NCBI GenBank assembly: GCA_030447315.1
Contig: JAUJPD010000004.1
Coordinates: 55,340 to 119,339, forward strand
Length of the DNA stretch: 64,000 nucleotides
Source: Actinomycetota bacterium
GTDB taxonomy: Bacteria > Actinomycetota > CADDZG01 > WHSQ01
Reading direction: 5' to 3'
The translations under genes were made by a program, and so were the position numbers. The notes below the pieces were generated by a model, which saw only the letters and a program-made list of their open reading frames with translations, had not been told where the DNA came from and searched no databases. Below are positions 10,465 to 48,364 of the stretch, piece after piece (within the stretch, counting starts at the first letter, position 1; the number at the start of each line of letters is the position of its first letter).

Positions 10465-11279
10465 CGCACCCCCAGCGTCTTCACGAAGAAAGACCGTTGC
10501 GCGGCGAGGAAAGCGATCACCGGTGGAGCCGTGACCATCACCGAGGCGGCCAACAAGATCGGGTGATTGGTGGGCTCGAGGGTCTGCAGAGCGCGCAGGC
10601 CCACAGACACCGTCTGCTTGTCGCCCGACGTCAGGTAGAGCAGAGGGTCGATGAAGTTGGCCCAGTGCCATCCGAAGGCCAGGACGGCTACCGCCAGGGC
10701 GACGGGAGCCGACAGCGGCCACGCGACCTTGCGCCAGATGCCGAAAGGCGACAGGTTCTCGAGCCTGGCGGCCTCGAAGAGCGTGCTGGGGAGGCGCGAG
10801 TAGGACAGTGCGAACAACAGCACGTAGAAGGGCGTCGTCGCCATCAGGGCAGGAGCGATCAGTGGCCACAAGGTGTCGACCAGGCCCAGCCACTTGAACA
10901 GGACGAAGCGCGGAACCCACAGGGCGCTCAGCGGGATCATCAATGCGACGACACTCAGCGCGATTAGGCGACGCCGGGCGCGTGGGCTTGCCACCGCGAT
11001 CGCGAAGCCCGCCCACGACGCCACCAGCACCGTGACGGGAACCGCTATCGCCACGACGATCAATGAGTTCGTCAGGTAGGTCCCCAAGGGGACGAACGCG
11101 AATACGTTTCTGTAGTTGGACCAGGTGAATCCCTGGGGAACGAGCTCGAACCCATCCGGCGGCGGAAGACCGGGCGCCCGCAGCGATCCGAGCACCATGA
11201 ACAGCAGTGGAGTGACGAACACCGTCGCCAGAGCCACGATCAGGAACCCGCGCAGGGACCGCCGAGCAGAAGATCTCAT
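10461..11279 (-). CDS. Sugar-type ABC transporter permease (MalG/UgpE-like)
   Basis: A 272-residue membrane protein starting at the ATG at 11279, which overlaps the stop of the upstream lipoprotein as ATGA. The N-terminal half has 'FVTPLLFMVLGSLR', as in MalG-type permeases, then 'YLTNSLIVVAIAVP'. The EAA loop is degenerate ('FEAARLENLSPFGIWRKVAWPLSAP'; key part FEAARLENLS), with Glu-Asn in place of the usual Asp-Gly. That deviation is visible but does not by itself imply loss of function. It forms the channel together with the permease at 7350. Confidence 0.9.
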   Translation of the reverse strand: MRSSARRSLRGFLIVALATVFVTPLLFMVLGSLRAPGLPPPDGFELVPQGFTWSNYRNVFAFVPLGTYLTNSLIVVAIAVPVTVLVASWAGFAIAVASPRARRRLIALSVVALMIPLSALWVPRFVLFKWLGLVDTLWPLIAPALMATTPFYVLLFALSYSRLPSTLFEAARLENLSPFGIWRKVAWPLSAPVALAVAVLAFGWHWANFIDPLLYLTSGDKQTVSVGLRALQTLEPTNHPILLAASVMVTAPPVIAFLAAQRSFFVKTLGVR

Positions 11280-40571: not shown

Positions 40572-41421
40572 TGGCGCAGGCAGCCCTTCGGAGGAACTTC
40601 GGAGCACCTGGTCGCTTCGTTACGCGCGGGGTCGACTCGCTGGCCAATCTCGGCGAGCAGCTCAGCTTCATGGCTAAGTCGCTCGTCGACGTGGTCCCTG
40701 CGGTGCGCCACGGCGGTGAGGTGGCGCGGCTCATCTCGGAGATCACACTCGGTTCGGGCGCCTTGATCGTGGGGGCCGGCACCGCGGGCGTCATCTTCTT
40801 CATGGCCTTCTTCACCGGCACCCAGGTGGGCCTGGAGGGGTTCAAGGGTCTGCAACTGATCGGAGCCGAGGCCTTTACCGGGTTCGTCTCCGCCTTCGCC
40901 AACACGCGAGAGATCACGCCTCTGATCGCCGGAGTCACCCTGGCCGCGCAGGTCGGAGCGGGTTTCGCACAGCAGAGCTGGGGCGATGAGGGTCAACGAG
41001 GAGATCGACGCGCTCGAGACGATGGCGGTGCGTCCCGTGCCTTATCTCATCTCCACCCGCGCCATCGCCGCTCTGGTAGCGATCACGCCGCTGTATCTGA
41101 TCTCGCTGTTCGCCTCGTACATCGCCACCGAATTGGTGGTCACCAAGCTTCTTGGACTGTCGGGGGAACCTACGCCCACTACTTCTCGTTGTTCCTTCCT
41201 CCGATCGACGTCTTCTACTCGCTCATCAAAGCCGTCGTCTTCGCTATCGCGGTCGCTTTGATCCACTGCTACTACGGGTTCAACGCGACGGGGGCCCCGC
41301 CGGAGTCGGCATCGCCGTCGGCAAGGCGATCAGGGCATCCATCGTCGTCGTGAACCTTCTGAATCTCATGATGTCGGCGTTCATGTGGGGAGTCACCGAC
41401 ACCGTCCGTATCGCCGGCTAG
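40571..41421 (+). CDS. YrbE/MlaE-like Mce permease B, three frame breaks
   Basis: About 284 residues when frames are joined. The ATG shares a base with the stop of permease A (TGATG). 'AKSLVDVVPAVRHGGEVARLI', 'GALIVGAGTAGVIFFMAFF', then after a shift near 40975 'MRVNEEIDALETMAVRPVPYLISTR' (the MlaE loop), after one near 41157 'GTYAHYFSLFLPPIDVFYSLIKAVVFAIAVALIHCYYGF' (key part FYSLIKAVVFAIAVA), and after one near 41297 'GVGIAVGKAIRASIVVVNLLNLM', ending 'TVRIAG'. Each shift restores the expected protein. It forms the channel with permease A and receives lipid from the Mce hexamer. Confidence 0.88.
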
Positions 41422-41433
41422 GCCTGTCGGAGG

Positions 41434-42567
41434 TTGAGCATCAAGAAACTGCGCCACGTGCTTGTAGGAGTTGTCGCCCTCGCGGTGGGGCTGGGCCTGG
41501 TCGCGCTCACCGGCATGGTCCTCACCGGGGCGATCAAAGGCGACGTCGTGGCGGCGACCGCGGAGTTCGACACCTGTGGTCAGGGGATCCGCGAGGGCGG
41601 CGACGTCAAGCTGCGCGGGGTCCTGGTCGGCAGGATCTCTGCGATCGACCTCGACGCGGGGGCGTGCCGGATCACCCTGGACCTGTTTCCCGAAGGCGTG
41701 GATCAGATCCCCGAGAACGTGGGGGCCGAGATCCGGGCCAAGACGGTCTTCGGCGAGAAGTGGGTCGAGTTGGTGTTCCCCGATGTCCCCGCCGACGCGC
41801 GCATCGCGTCGGGCGACAACATCCCCAAGAACAGGACGCTCGACCCGCTCGAGGTCGAAACCATCTTGAACGTGGCGCTGCCGCTCCTCGACGCGATCGA
41901 CCCGGAGAACCTGGCGGGGGCGCTGGAGGCGCTGGCGGGGGGATTCGTAGGTCACGAAGATGCCGCGATCAAGGGGATCAAGGAGGGCATCGCCGCGCTG
42001 AAACCCCTCAACGAGAACGAAGGGTCTCTCAAGTCGGGGATCGACCAACTCGCCGGGTCCTCTGCCGTCCTGGCGGACGTCGACGACGAGCTTCTGACGG
42101 CTCTCGACAACCTGGATGACCTGAACCGCTTCACCATCGCGAACGAAGCTCTGATCGAAGAGAACTTCGAGAAAGCTCCGGTCTTGCTAGACGAGCTGTC
42201 CGGCCTCTTCGACAGTCACTTCGGCGACTTCACCCGGATCGTGGACCGGGGCGCAACGGTCATCGGGGTCCTCGCGGCCCGGAACGACGACCTCGACAAG
42301 CTTTTGAACGTCCTTCCGAAGTTCAACTCGCGCTGGATCAGGAACCTCAACCACGTGTGCCGCTACCGGCAAGCGACCGACGAACCCGGAAAGAGCGTCG
42401 GCGATCGGGTTCCGGGCCGCTGCTGGAGGGTCCACAACGTCATCAGCACCAGCCGAGGCGCTTACGACGAAGAAGATCCTCCGAGATCCGAGCGGCTGTC
42501 CCCGGCCCCCTCGCGCGAAGACGGCCTCGGGGGCATGCTGTTCGCTCCCGCCGGAGGACGGCCATGA
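41434..42567 (+). CDS. Mce protein 1 (MceA position)
   Basis: About 377 residues. One N-terminal membrane helix ('HVLVGVVALAVGLGLVALTGMVLTG'; key part ALAVGLGLVAL), the Mce/MlaD beta domain ('IREGGDVKLRGVLVGRISAI', 'AEIRAKTVFGEKWVEL') near residues 40-130, then a long helical part and a polar C-terminus with two cysteines. MCE proteins form hexameric tubes that carry lipids from the cell surface to the permease. The start is unclear: GGAGG directly abuts the TTG at 41434, and GTG at 41458 may be the real start. The end overlaps the next gene as ATGA. Confidence 0.88.
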   Translation: MSIKKLRHVLVGVVALAVGLGLVALTGMVLTGAIKGDVVAATAEFDTCGQGIREGGDVKLRGVLVGRISAIDLDAGACRITLDLFPEGVDQIPENVGAEIRAKTVFGEKWVELVFPDVPADARIASGDNIPKNRTLDPLEVETILNVALPLLDAIDPENLAGALEALAGGFVGHEDAAIKGIKEGIAALKPLNENEGSLKSGIDQLAGSSAVLADVDDELLTALDNLDDLNRFTIANEALIEENFEKAPVLLDELSGLFDSHFGDFTRIVDRGATVIGVLAARNDDLDKLLNVLPKFNSRWIRNLNHVCRYRQATDEPGKSVGDRVPGRCWRVHNVISTSRGAYDEEDPPRSERLSPAPSREDGLGGMLFAPAGGRP

Positions 42568-44542: not shown

Positions 44543-46014
44543 GAGACATGTCCCGCTTCATCAAGCCGATGGCCTATGCGATCGCCGCCCTGCTCGTGAC
44601 CGGAGGCGGGTACCTCGGCTACCGCTCGTTCGAGAAAGAGACGGGCACCTATCAGGTGACGGCGTACTTCACCAAGGCGATCGGTCTGTTCCCCAACTCC
44701 GACGTCGACATCCTCGGCGTCCCCGTAGGGACGATCGACTCGGTGGAGCCGGTGGGCAGCAAGGTCAAAGTCGTCATGAGCATCGAAGAGGAGTACAAGG
44801 TGCCGGCGGGTGCGACGGCTCAGATCGTGCCGATCTCGGTGATCTCCGACCGCTACGTTCAGCTGTCCCCGGTATATCAAGGCGGCGAAGCTCTGGCCGA
44901 TGGGGCCGAGATCCCGCTGGAGAACACCTACATCCCCGCCGAGCTCGACGATGTCTTCAAGCAGCTGAAGAAGCTGCTGGACGCGATCGAACCCGGCAAG
45001 TCCGGGGAACCCGGCGTGCTCGGCGACCTCATCGTGCAACTCGACCAGACGTTGCAGGACCGCGAGCAGGATCTCAAGGGCACGCTGATCAACGGCTCCA
45101 AGCTGACGGCGACGCTCGCCGACGCTCAAGGTGACATCTCCGGCCTTCTCACCAATCTGGACGACCTCTTCGGCCGCCTCGCAACGCGCGCCAACTCTCT
45201 GGGCACCCTGAACCGCAACTTCGCTCTGGTGATGGCCGCTCTGAATGAAAGCCGCAACGATCTCGAGGGGACCCTCGTGAACCTGGGCGACCTCACCGGT
45301 GAGGTCGCCAGCCTCGTCAAGCAACACGGCGACAGGCTGGGTGGCGATCTGGAGCTCGCCGCGAGGATCGTAAAGACGATCCTCGACAACCGGGCTTCGG
45401 TCGAGGAGTCACTGGTATGGCTGCCGATCCTGGGACGCGGGATCGACCAGGCCTACAACCCCATGGTCGACTCGATCGACGTTCGCGACAACGCCAACGC
45501 GAAGCTGCAGTGCAAGATCTTGCGGCCGCTGCCCCCCGGACCCGTCAAGGACGCTCTGACCGAGCTCTGCAGGGCCGAGACGGGAGAACCGGGCGGGGGC
45601 GGCGGCGAGCCGCGTGCGAGCCGGGCTGTCTCCGAAGGCGCTAGGCCCGTCACGATCTTGAAGAAGCTCGACTGTGACGAGGGCGTCCGCAAGGTGACCA
45701 AGCAGCTACGGCGCCTCGAGGACGCGGGGCTGCCGACGGAGCTGTCCCAAGAGCTGCTGAAGCCACTGAAGAAGAAGATCCGCCAGCTGAAGAAGCGCTG
45801 TGACGATCTGGGCGAGGCGATCGATGACCCCGATGTCCTCGAACAGCTCGAGGACATCGGTTCGATCCCCGAGATCGAGCCTCCGATCGACAACGACGCC
45901 CTGACGGGCAGCGCGGCATCGTCTCCCGTCCCGCCCTCCGAGACGCCGTCTGCGTGGCAGAACCTCAGCTCGTGGATCGGCGGCTTCCTCGGGTACGTGG
46001 GAGTCGGACGATGA
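44539..46014 (+). CDS. Mce protein 4 (MceD position), extended C-terminus
   Basis: A 491-residue Mce protein. It has one membrane helix near residues 8-28, the MCE domain ('YFTKAIGLFPNSDVDILGVPVGTIDSV', key part VDILGVPVGTI; 'AQIVPISVISDRYVQLSP'), a helical region to about 330, and then some 160 extra residues. Those include a Gly-rich stretch, a Lys-rich helix 'LLKPLKKKIRQLKKRCDDLG' and a final hydrophobic 'LSSWIGGFLGYVGVG'. Long C-termini occur in this position in mycobacterial operons too. ATGA overlaps on both sides. Confidence 0.92.
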   Translation: MRDMSRFIKPMAYAIAALLVTGGGYLGYRSFEKETGTYQVTAYFTKAIGLFPNSDVDILGVPVGTIDSVEPVGSKVKVVMSIEEEYKVPAGATAQIVPISVISDRYVQLSPVYQGGEALADGAEIPLENTYIPAELDDVFKQLKKLLDAIEPGKSGEPGVLGDLIVQLDQTLQDREQDLKGTLINGSKLTATLADAQGDISGLLTNLDDLFGRLATRANSLGTLNRNFALVMAALNESRNDLEGTLVNLGDLTGEVASLVKQHGDRLGGDLELAARIVKTILDNRASVEESLVWLPILGRGIDQAYNPMVDSIDVRDNANAKLQCKILRPLPPGPVKDALTELCRAETGEPGGGGGEPRASRAVSEGARPVTILKKLDCDEGVRKVTKQLRRLEDAGLPTELSQELLKPLKKKIRQLKKRCDDLGEAIDDPDVLEQLEDIGSIPEIEPPIDNDALTGSAASSPVPPSETPSAWQNLSSWIGGFLGYVGVGR

Positions 46015-47099
46015 TCCGCCGCCTCGCCTTGCTCGCCGCCGTCATGATGCTGACCTCGTCGTGTGCGGCGATCGGTTTCGCGAGCGCGTGTGAAGGCACC
46101 GAGATCATCGCCACGTTCGAGGAGGTCGGGGACCTCGTCGAGAACGCGGACGTGCAGTCCTCCGATGTAGAGGTCGGGACGGTGCAGAAGATCGAGCTGG
46201 ACGGCTGGAACGCGCGGGTCTCGATGTGCGTGGACGAAGAGGAGAAGATCCCCGAAGACGCCAAGCTCGTGGTTCGAACGACGTCTCTGTTGGGCGAGAA
46301 GTTCGTGGACGTGCAAGCTCTTAGCTCCGGTCCTCCTTTCCTGGAAGACGGAGCCATAGTGGGGATCGACCAAACCGGAAAAGCAACAGAGCTCGAAGAG
46401 GTGTTCGCCAAGCTGGCCGGAGTCCTGGGAACGGGCAACCTCGAGCAGCTCAACCGCTTCACGTCCGCTCAGGCGAAGATCCTTGGGGAGAACGCCGGGG
46501 AACTGCGTGAGGTGCTGTCGAGACTGAGACAGTTCACGGACGTTTTGGCGGGCCGCAAAGACCAGATCGCCGCCTCCGTCGACTCGTTGGATTCGGTGGC
46601 ACAGACGATCCTGGGGGACTCGTCGGTCCTCGAGCAATTCCTGGCCTCGTTCGCGGACTCGTCTGCGGTCCTCAACCGCCAGAGCAAGGGTCTGGAGCGG
46701 CTCCTTATCGCGCTGGATGACTTCACCAGCATCAGCGTGCGCTTGCTCGACCAGACCGAGGAGGGGCTCGACGACCAGTTCAGAGACCTGCGCCCCGTCT
46801 TGGGCACCGCGGTCGAAAACAGCGCCAACATCAGAAAGACGCTGCAGACGCTGGCTACCTTCACCGAGATCTTCCCCGAGACATCCCCGGGGGACTACAC
46901 GCAGCTCGACATCTGTCAGGCCATGCCCGGCTTCAGGGGAACCGGCACCACCTGTCCGCAGTCCGACCAGAACGATGACCCGACGGCCGCCCGCGCCTCC
47001 GGCGGCTCAACGAACAGTCGCTCACAGCAACCCGGTGACGGTTTTCCCGTCAGCGGGATCGAGCTCATCCTCCGTCAACCGTTGAGGGCAAGCTCGTGA
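46011..47099 (+). CDS. Mce protein 5 (MceE position), predicted lipoprotein
   Basis: A 362-residue Mce protein whose N-terminus is a lipoprotein signal ('RRLALLAAVMMLTSSCAA', lipobox LTSSC), as for LprK-like MceE proteins. The MCE domain ('TFEEVGDLVENADVQSSDVEVGTV'; 'VVRTTSLLGEKFVDVQAL') and a helical region follow, with 'DICQAMPGFRGTGTTCPQ' near the end. Its final residues 'LRQPLRASS' and the stop lie in the first unit of a 56-bp tandem duplication. ATG at 46011 overlaps the previous stop. Confidence 0.92.
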   Translation: MIRRLALLAAVMMLTSSCAAIGFASACEGTEIIATFEEVGDLVENADVQSSDVEVGTVQKIELDGWNARVSMCVDEEEKIPEDAKLVVRTTSLLGEKFVDVQALSSGPPFLEDGAIVGIDQTGKATELEEVFAKLAGVLGTGNLEQLNRFTSAQAKILGENAGELREVLSRLRQFTDVLAGRKDQIAASVDSLDSVAQTILGDSSVLEQFLASFADSSAVLNRQSKGLERLLIALDDFTSISVRLLDQTEEGLDDQFRDLRPVLGTAVENSANIRKTLQTLATFTEIFPETSPGDYTQLDICQAMPGFRGTGTTCPQSDQNDDPTAARASGGSTNSRSQQPGDGFPVSGIELILRQPLRASS

Positions 47100-47157
47100 T
47101 CCGCTACGTCGCCATCGAGTTCGCCTTCCGCCAACCGTTGAGGGCAAGCTCGTGATC
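47071..47157. repeat. Tandem 56-bp duplication at the mceE-mceF junction
   Basis: A segment of about 31 bases (one mismatch) starting TCCG(T/C)CAACCGTTGAGG occurs at 47071-47101 and 47127-47157, 56 bp apart. Both units end in CTCGTGATC, containing a TGA stop overlapped by a GTG start. The unit length is not a multiple of three, yet both stop/start overlaps are preserved. Confidence 0.9.
47096..47155 (+). CDS. 19-codon micro-ORF created by the duplication
   Basis: GTG at 47096 overlaps the mceE stop; its own TGA at 47153 overlaps the GTG of mceF. It would encode 19 residues ending 'FRQPLRASS', the same last nine as mceE apart from the first residue. It is probably a by-product of the duplication that lets ribosomes pass from mceE to mceF by two successive couplings. 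Whether the peptide is stable or useful is unknown. Confidence 0.4.
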   Translation: MIRYVAIEFAFRQPLRASS

Positions 47158-48364
47158 GGCTGGAGGATCAAGGTGAACCTCGTTGCCTTCCTGGTGATCT
47201 CGCTGGGACTCGTGTACGCGATGGCCACGCAGGTGCTGTCGGTCCTGCAGCCGAGGTATTCCGTGTATGCCATCTTGCCGGACGCCGGCGGCGTCTTCAC
47301 CAACCAGGAAGTGACCTACCGCGGCGTCACGGTGGGCCAGGTGGGCGAGATGAAGGTCGTTCCGCAGGGTGTCAGCATCGAGCTCTCGATCGAGAAGGAA
47401 TACGACCAGATCCCCAAGGAAGACGTGGAAGCTCGCGCCATGTTCAAGAGCGCGGTGGGCGAGCAGTTCGTCGATCTTCTGCCGGCATCGGATGGAGCGC
47501 CGTACCTGGCGGATGGCGACAAGATCCCCAAGGAACAGAACTCGATCCCGGTCAGCACCCAGGAGCTACTCACCACCCTCGAGGCCGTTCTGCGAGGTGT
47601 GCCTCCCGAAGCCCTGAAGGGGGCGGTGGATTCACTCGGCGCAGGCCTGACGGGGCATGGTCCCGAGATCGCGACCATCCTCGAGTCGATGGCCGAGCTG
47701 GCCGAGCTGTTCGCCGACAAGGCTCCGGAGGTCCAGGGCATCCTCGACAACGGGACGAAGGTCGGAAAGGCGTTCGTTGCATCGAGTGACGACTTCGAGC
47801 AGGCGATCCGCAACCTGGTCGAGGTGAGCGAAGAGCTGTCTCAGGACCGGCCCGATCTCCAGCGTCTACCGGAGAACACCAACCTCACTTCAGAGGAGGT
47901 CGTTGCACTCCTGCGGGATCACGACGCCAGCATCGACCGGTTCCTGCCCCGCTTCGCCGAGCTGAATGAGTTGCAAGCAGAACACTCGGAGGATCTGACG
48001 CAGTTGTTCATCCATCTCCCCGACGGCCTCAACAAGATCGTTCGCTCGTTCGAAGCCGAGACCGGGCTGATCAGGTTCGGCATCATCGACGACTTCGATG
48101 CCGGCGCGCAGTTACGGGACCGACCGGCGCCGGCCGACCGACCGATCGCCGAAGCTCCCGCCGAAGTCGGCGCGCTGTGAGAGCATCACGTCTAGCTCTC
48201 GCTCGGCCCCGGCCACGGCCGGCGGCGAGAGTGGAGGCGATAGCGGCCGCGCTGGTTCGGCGGAGAGGCCGGGTGATGTTCTCTCGGGAGCGTCTGATCC
48301 TCTCGCGCTTCCCGACCGGATGTCGGACTGGTCCTGGTCCCTGCTGCTGCTGAACGGCGTCTAA
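47152..48364 (+). CDS. Mce protein 6 (MceF position), one frame break
   Basis: About 404 residues. 'KVNLVAFLVISLGLVYAMATQVL' is the membrane anchor, 'LPDAGGVFTNQEVTYRGVTVGQV' (key part EVTYRGVTVGQV) and 'MFKSAVGEQFVDLLPASDG' the MCE domain, then the helical region to 'GLIRFGIIDDFDAG'. The present frame stops at 48180, but near 48108 a one-base shift yields '(C)SYGTDRRRPTDRSPKLPPKSARC', the Cys-bounded tail expected at the end of Mce proteins, running to a TAA at 48364. I therefore extend the gene there. GTG start at 47152 lies in the second duplication unit. Confidence 0.87.

Follow-up and report, generated by a model that had tools for sequence, protein, structure and literature searches.

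A tandem duplication of the coupling junction between mceE and mceF has probably made, in the lineage studied here, a ribosome relay that keeps mceF translationally coupled. The junction lies in a 64,000-nucleotide stretch of DNA (the window) from the actinobacterial genome of an uncultured host, assembled as 2.46 Mb in 22 contigs with 92% completeness. It is best read as a real, lineage-specific and self-made relay at a coupled junction, ordinary tandem duplication being its origin. The two genes occupy the fifth and sixth mce positions (TIGR00996; phmmer assignments) in a lipid-import operon of the form yrbE-mceA..F, where the yrbE genes are followed by six successive MCE genes, the arrangement by which an actinobacterial mce operon is recognized. 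The ATG of mceE, the product of which ends in IELILRQPLRASS, overlaps the mceD stop as ATGA, and an ATGA or GTGA overlap is present at all the remaining mceA-F junctions of this operon, which makes coupling the rule there. The yrbE/mceA junction (41353-41434) has no 4-nt overlap; its gap is about 80 nt, and a TTG start was called. The features of the mceE/mceF junction are collected in Table 1.

Table 1. Genes, repeat copies, predicted hairpins and candidate starts at the mceE/mceF junction (positions in the window).
Feature	Position	Strand	Description
mceE	46011..47099	+	MCE family protein; TIGR00996 2e-51
Repeat copy 1	47058..47105	+	mceE end, Shine-Dalgarno-like GAGG at 47084-47087, GTGA stop/start overlap
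Copy 1 hairpin	47060..47096	+	Predicted at -14.6 kcal/mol (z -2.7), with GAGGG and the start codon's first base paired
Relay micro-ORF	47096..47155	+	19 codons, GTG start, TGA stop; VIRYVAIEFAFRQPLRASS
Repeat copy 2	47114..47161	+	Micro-ORF end, GAGG at 47140-47143, GTGA stop/start overlap with mceF
Copy 2 hairpin	47116..47152	+	Predicted at -17.9 kcal/mol (z -3.5), covering the Shine-Dalgarno of mceF
mceF	47152..48180	+	MCE family protein; TIGR00996 2.5e-49
Internal in-frame GTG	47173..47175	+	Candidate relay-independent mceF start, GGAGG a few nt upstream

The mceE/mceF junction is spanned by a 48-nt direct repeat, the copies of which are identical at 42/48 positions (88%) and lie at a start-to-start offset of 56. 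This confirms the claim of the initial annotation that the end of mceE and the start of mceF are found in two copies 56 bp apart. Its further statement that the same sequence had been copied is accurate for an exact core of 26 nt (47076-47101 = 47132-47157), which contains the last mceE codons, GAGG and the GTGATC stop/start, but the copy as a whole is inexact: the repeat is recognisable over 48 of the unit's 56 nt, and the remaining 8 (47050-47057 versus 47106-47113) match at 3/8. The 20-mer TTGAGGGCAAGCTCGTGATC occurs twice in the window against 0.00 occurrences expected in shuffles, and thus the repeat is far above chance. The six differences between the copies are spread unevenly: five precede the exact core of 26 nt, within the first 18 nt, and one follows it (Fisher p ~0.008 for the first 18 nt versus the core), as could result from conversion between the copies, from recombination of diverged alleles, or from constraint on the 3' part. 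Beyond the two copies in the window, the 2.46-Mb assembly contained no third copy of the 26-mer at up to 3 mismatches, and a blast for further repeat copies in the genome returned no other match of note; the repeat is therefore not an interspersed element. No Rfam family matched within 46900-47400. The interior of mceF holds two short direct repeats of its own (47340-47362/47454-47476 and 47403-47421/47517-47535), both spaced 114 nt, which is 38 codons.

The single-copy state of the junction was found in the sole available congener, G001 (JADDQX010000047.1), the mceF of which is 78% identical to that of the window. There, mceE ends in LEYILRQPLRSTS and overlaps mceF directly as GTGA, and the mceF start is homologous to the GTG at 47152, that is, to the start in copy 2. 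Two adjacent homologous copies here and a single one in G001 fit a local tandem duplication, and, given the single copy in G001, the duplication most likely arose in the lineage of the window after its split from G001. As one congener was compared, loss of a copy in G001 may be an alternative to gain here. A first scan of genome contigs for relatives by MceF peptide patterns found none, and an alignment search gave distant relatives and G001 only. Comparison of the junction in relatives, which the initial annotation had proposed, thus yielded a single copy with a direct GTGA overlap in G001 and mostly direct NTGA overlaps at the E/F junctions of the relatives inspected.

The micro-ORF, which our survey of junctions described below also picked up independently, shares 4 nt with the end of mceE (stop at 47097-47099) and 4 nt with the beginning of mceF (start at 47152), so that GTGA at 47096-47099 and at 47152-47155 forms -4 stop/start overlaps at both of its ends. 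Its length, start, stop and overlaps are as the initial annotation had them, but the explanation has to be turned around. The exact micro-ORF had been presented as surprising for a spacing of 56, which three does not divide; it arises because 56 is 2 modulo 3. A tandem copy of any NTGA junction with a unit length of 2 modulo 3 yields an exact micro-ORF, since with that length the old start is in frame with the stop of the copied tail. Both frames are open by descent, and the chance of the relay geometry is therefore about one third; the exactness is a one-in-three geometric outcome of duplicating an NTGA junction.

These features suggest how coupling would have survived. The copied unit would comprise the last mceE codons, the Shine-Dalgarno-like GAGG and the GTGA stop/start overlap. 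With a unit of 2 modulo 3 and the one-base frame shift made by the overlap, the former mceF start would open the 19-codon ORF, which would cross the second copy of the mceE tail and stop exactly on the new mceF start. Ribosomes finishing mceE would restart on the micro-ORF, and those translating the micro-ORF would melt the second junction and then restart on mceF, the coupling of mceF being kept in two steps across 52 nt. Reporter experiments in Haloferax and E. coli found almost no reinitiation once the gap reached about 20 nt and 38 nt, respectively (PMC10666635). The mceF start is now 52 nt past the mceE stop, and a gap of this size without a relay should therefore uncouple mceF. The -4 (NTGA) overlap, the commonest gene spacing in prokaryotes (PMC10666635), is the same at both micro-ORF ends as in ordinary termination-reinitiation, from which the window differs in having two couplings in series, via the 19-codon ORF, and not one. 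The idea put forward in the initial annotation, that coupling persists through a relay, fits this distance dependence of reinitiation (PMC10666635), the relay ORFs at other mce junctions, and the MIRU elements (PMC12548453). We take the peptide for a probable by-product and think that the duplication was probably tolerated, not favoured by selection as a means of tuning.

It is rather unlikely, but still deserves some weight, that the duplication is real while its micro-ORF matters little, mceF starting independently at GTG 47152 or 47173. Judged from its strong Shine-Dalgarno, GTG 47173 could start mceF without a relay: its pairing is calculated at -9.3 kcal/mol, versus -5.8 for GTG 47152. 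Moreover, the relay frame had a 1-in-3 chance to begin with, and the duplication is limited to one genome. However, GTG 47173 reads GTC in G001, whereas the start at 47152 is conserved, and mce junctions as a class are strongly enriched in the relay frame.

The predicted hairpins would make each start depend on translation from upstream, and one might suppose, in line with the tuning suggested by the initial annotation, that two serial hairpins occluding the Shine-Dalgarno, together with two rounds of reinitiation, reduce the output of MceF relative to MceE and were retained for this effect. We consider this improbable. In each copy, the Shine-Dalgarno is predicted to lie within a fold, and the substitutions between the copies mostly preserve pairing. 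Support for the hairpins is weak, as the single junction of G001 folds unremarkably (z -0.5). Compensatory evolution looked plausible to the eye but was rejected, because random substitutions left an equally good hairpin in 2-32% of simulations, which is not significant. A dispersed 80-bp relay element of another genus has far stronger Shine-Dalgarno-occluding hairpins (z -3.7 to -6.4). Those of the window are not conserved, being present in one genome only. Unequal output would also be disfavoured if the Mce subunits assemble in a fixed proportion.

It is very improbable that the repeat is an artefact of the metagenome bin, in which tandem fusion of two strain-specific forms of the junction would have produced it, even though the assembly has 22 contigs at 92% completeness and the copies differ as strain alleles might. 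Such a false join requires reads with the bridge 47102-47116, which is absent from the single-copy allele and from the congener. Identical copies would be expected of a simple assembly repeat, and the differences at 6/48 positions make an assembly duplication, which the initial annotation had wished to exclude, unlikely. A frameshift error, in which an in-frame 57-bp copy would have lost one base and mceE would have a longer tail, was rejected as well, as the 26 nt through the stop/start are identical in both copies; the match of the mceE tail before the stop to G001 also contradicts it.

Insertion of a MIRU-like interspersed element at the mceE/mceF junction would give the same relay geometry with a unit of 2 modulo 3, and such elements occupy mce junctions elsewhere (L106), but it has next to no probability and is refuted for this genome as assembled, with no further genome copy (up to 3 mismatches; blast) and a unit homologous to the mceE tail itself.

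Setting insertion aside in favour of local duplication, the relay of the window is a variant of a known MIRU-style trick, built from the host's own junction. By description, MIRUs are relay inserts (PMC12548453), and their published unit lengths are 77 and 53 bp (PMC4213456), both of which, like the 56 of the window, are 2 modulo 3. Compared on this descriptive basis, the MIRU and the unit of the window are both short, lie between co-directed genes, and contain an ORF that a -4 (NTGA) overlap couples to the adjacent gene; in the window, there is such an overlap at either end of the ORF, with the stop of mceE and with the start of mceF. In contrast to MIRU, which is interspersed at several genome loci, the unit of the window is a local copy of the host mceE tail, is not dispersed, exists in two copies, and bears no sign of mobility.

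A mobile counterpart was found in the genus g161 (genomes G390 and G219), where an interspersed 80-bp relay element contains a 27-codon ORF (MSERQR...VRR) with ATGA at both ends. One copy lies between mceA and mceB (L106:6042-6124 in G390), further copies are present in G390, and a tandem array of three occurs in the sister genome (L152:1502-1741 in G219). This element looks like a MIRU-type one. It shares with the window a relay ORF with NTGA overlaps at both ends, in one copy also at an mce junction, but it is interspersed, has a strong hairpin over the Shine-Dalgarno, and has no noted sequence similarity to the repeat of the window. At the same mceE/mceF junction in another lineage (G046, L058), a relay ORF of only 5 codons (MRRGR) is crossed by a 9-nt exact repeat with a spacing of 14, again 2 modulo 3. 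This is possibly an independent junction duplication, the repeat being short enough to leave it uncertain. Also in G046, a 40-codon TTG ORF after the mceD stop, at mceD/mceE, resembles the mceD C-terminus in another frame, and mceD may be frameshifted there.

We surveyed relay ORFs of at least 4 codons at mce/yrbE junctions in two sets of loci: the first of 34 loci, including the window, with 216 junctions, and the second of 60 loci with 376 junctions, gathered later and scored by the identical rule. Among NTGA-ended non-overlapping junctions, a relay ORF was present in 7/18 in the first set (1.0-1.3 expected) and in 15/30 in the second (0.5-3.1 expected), with start codons ambiguous in some cases and the doubtful mceD/mceE "relay" of G046 included. 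Where both ends were NTGA and non-overlapping, the start-to-start spacings fell 28/4/1 into frames 2/1/0, so that 28/33 were 2 modulo 3 (loci L057-L088 and L089-L148), and 27 of the 28 frame-2 spacings had an open relay frame. A p of 1.5e-9 against one third was discarded as too generous, frame 0 being removed by the construction of the scheme; the fair comparison is that of frame 2 with frame 1, which gave 28 versus 4 (p ~1e-5), and 13 versus 1 for spacings of at least 38 nt; some homologous junctions, among them the short-gap yrbE2/mceA junction of 11 nt in the full count, enter these figures repeatedly. Reference junctions without an NTGA end were distributed 25/16/14 over frames 2/1/0, a slight lean to frame 2 that weakens the contrast somewhat. 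Outside mce, the focal genome had no excess of relay ORFs by codon-usage gene calls, but NTGA-ended gapped pairs were too few there.

It is tempting to conclude from these counts that selection maintains bridging micro-ORFs as a general feature of actinobacterial mce operons. When an insertion, a duplication or a mobile unit comes between coupled genes, the surviving units would be those of 2 modulo 3 with an open frame, and the junction in the window would be a young case soon after duplication; the proposal is tentative, and we lean slightly against it. The survey suggests that coupling between Mce subunits may be selected strongly enough to filter insertions by frame. The junction in the window is an example of what seems to be a frame rule of mce operons, a unit of 2 modulo 3 and an open relay frame, which also fits the 77 and 53 bp of MIRU, the 80-bp element, and the spacing of 14 in G046. 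To duplicate an NTGA junction by such a unit would be a simple route to a new small ORF inside an operon with coupling unbroken. The rule is testable across genomes and usable for finding unannotated relay ORFs. One further possible relay of five codons (MRWQR) was seen between two genes on the minus strand of L043, near base 11083 of that strand, depending on the choice of start.
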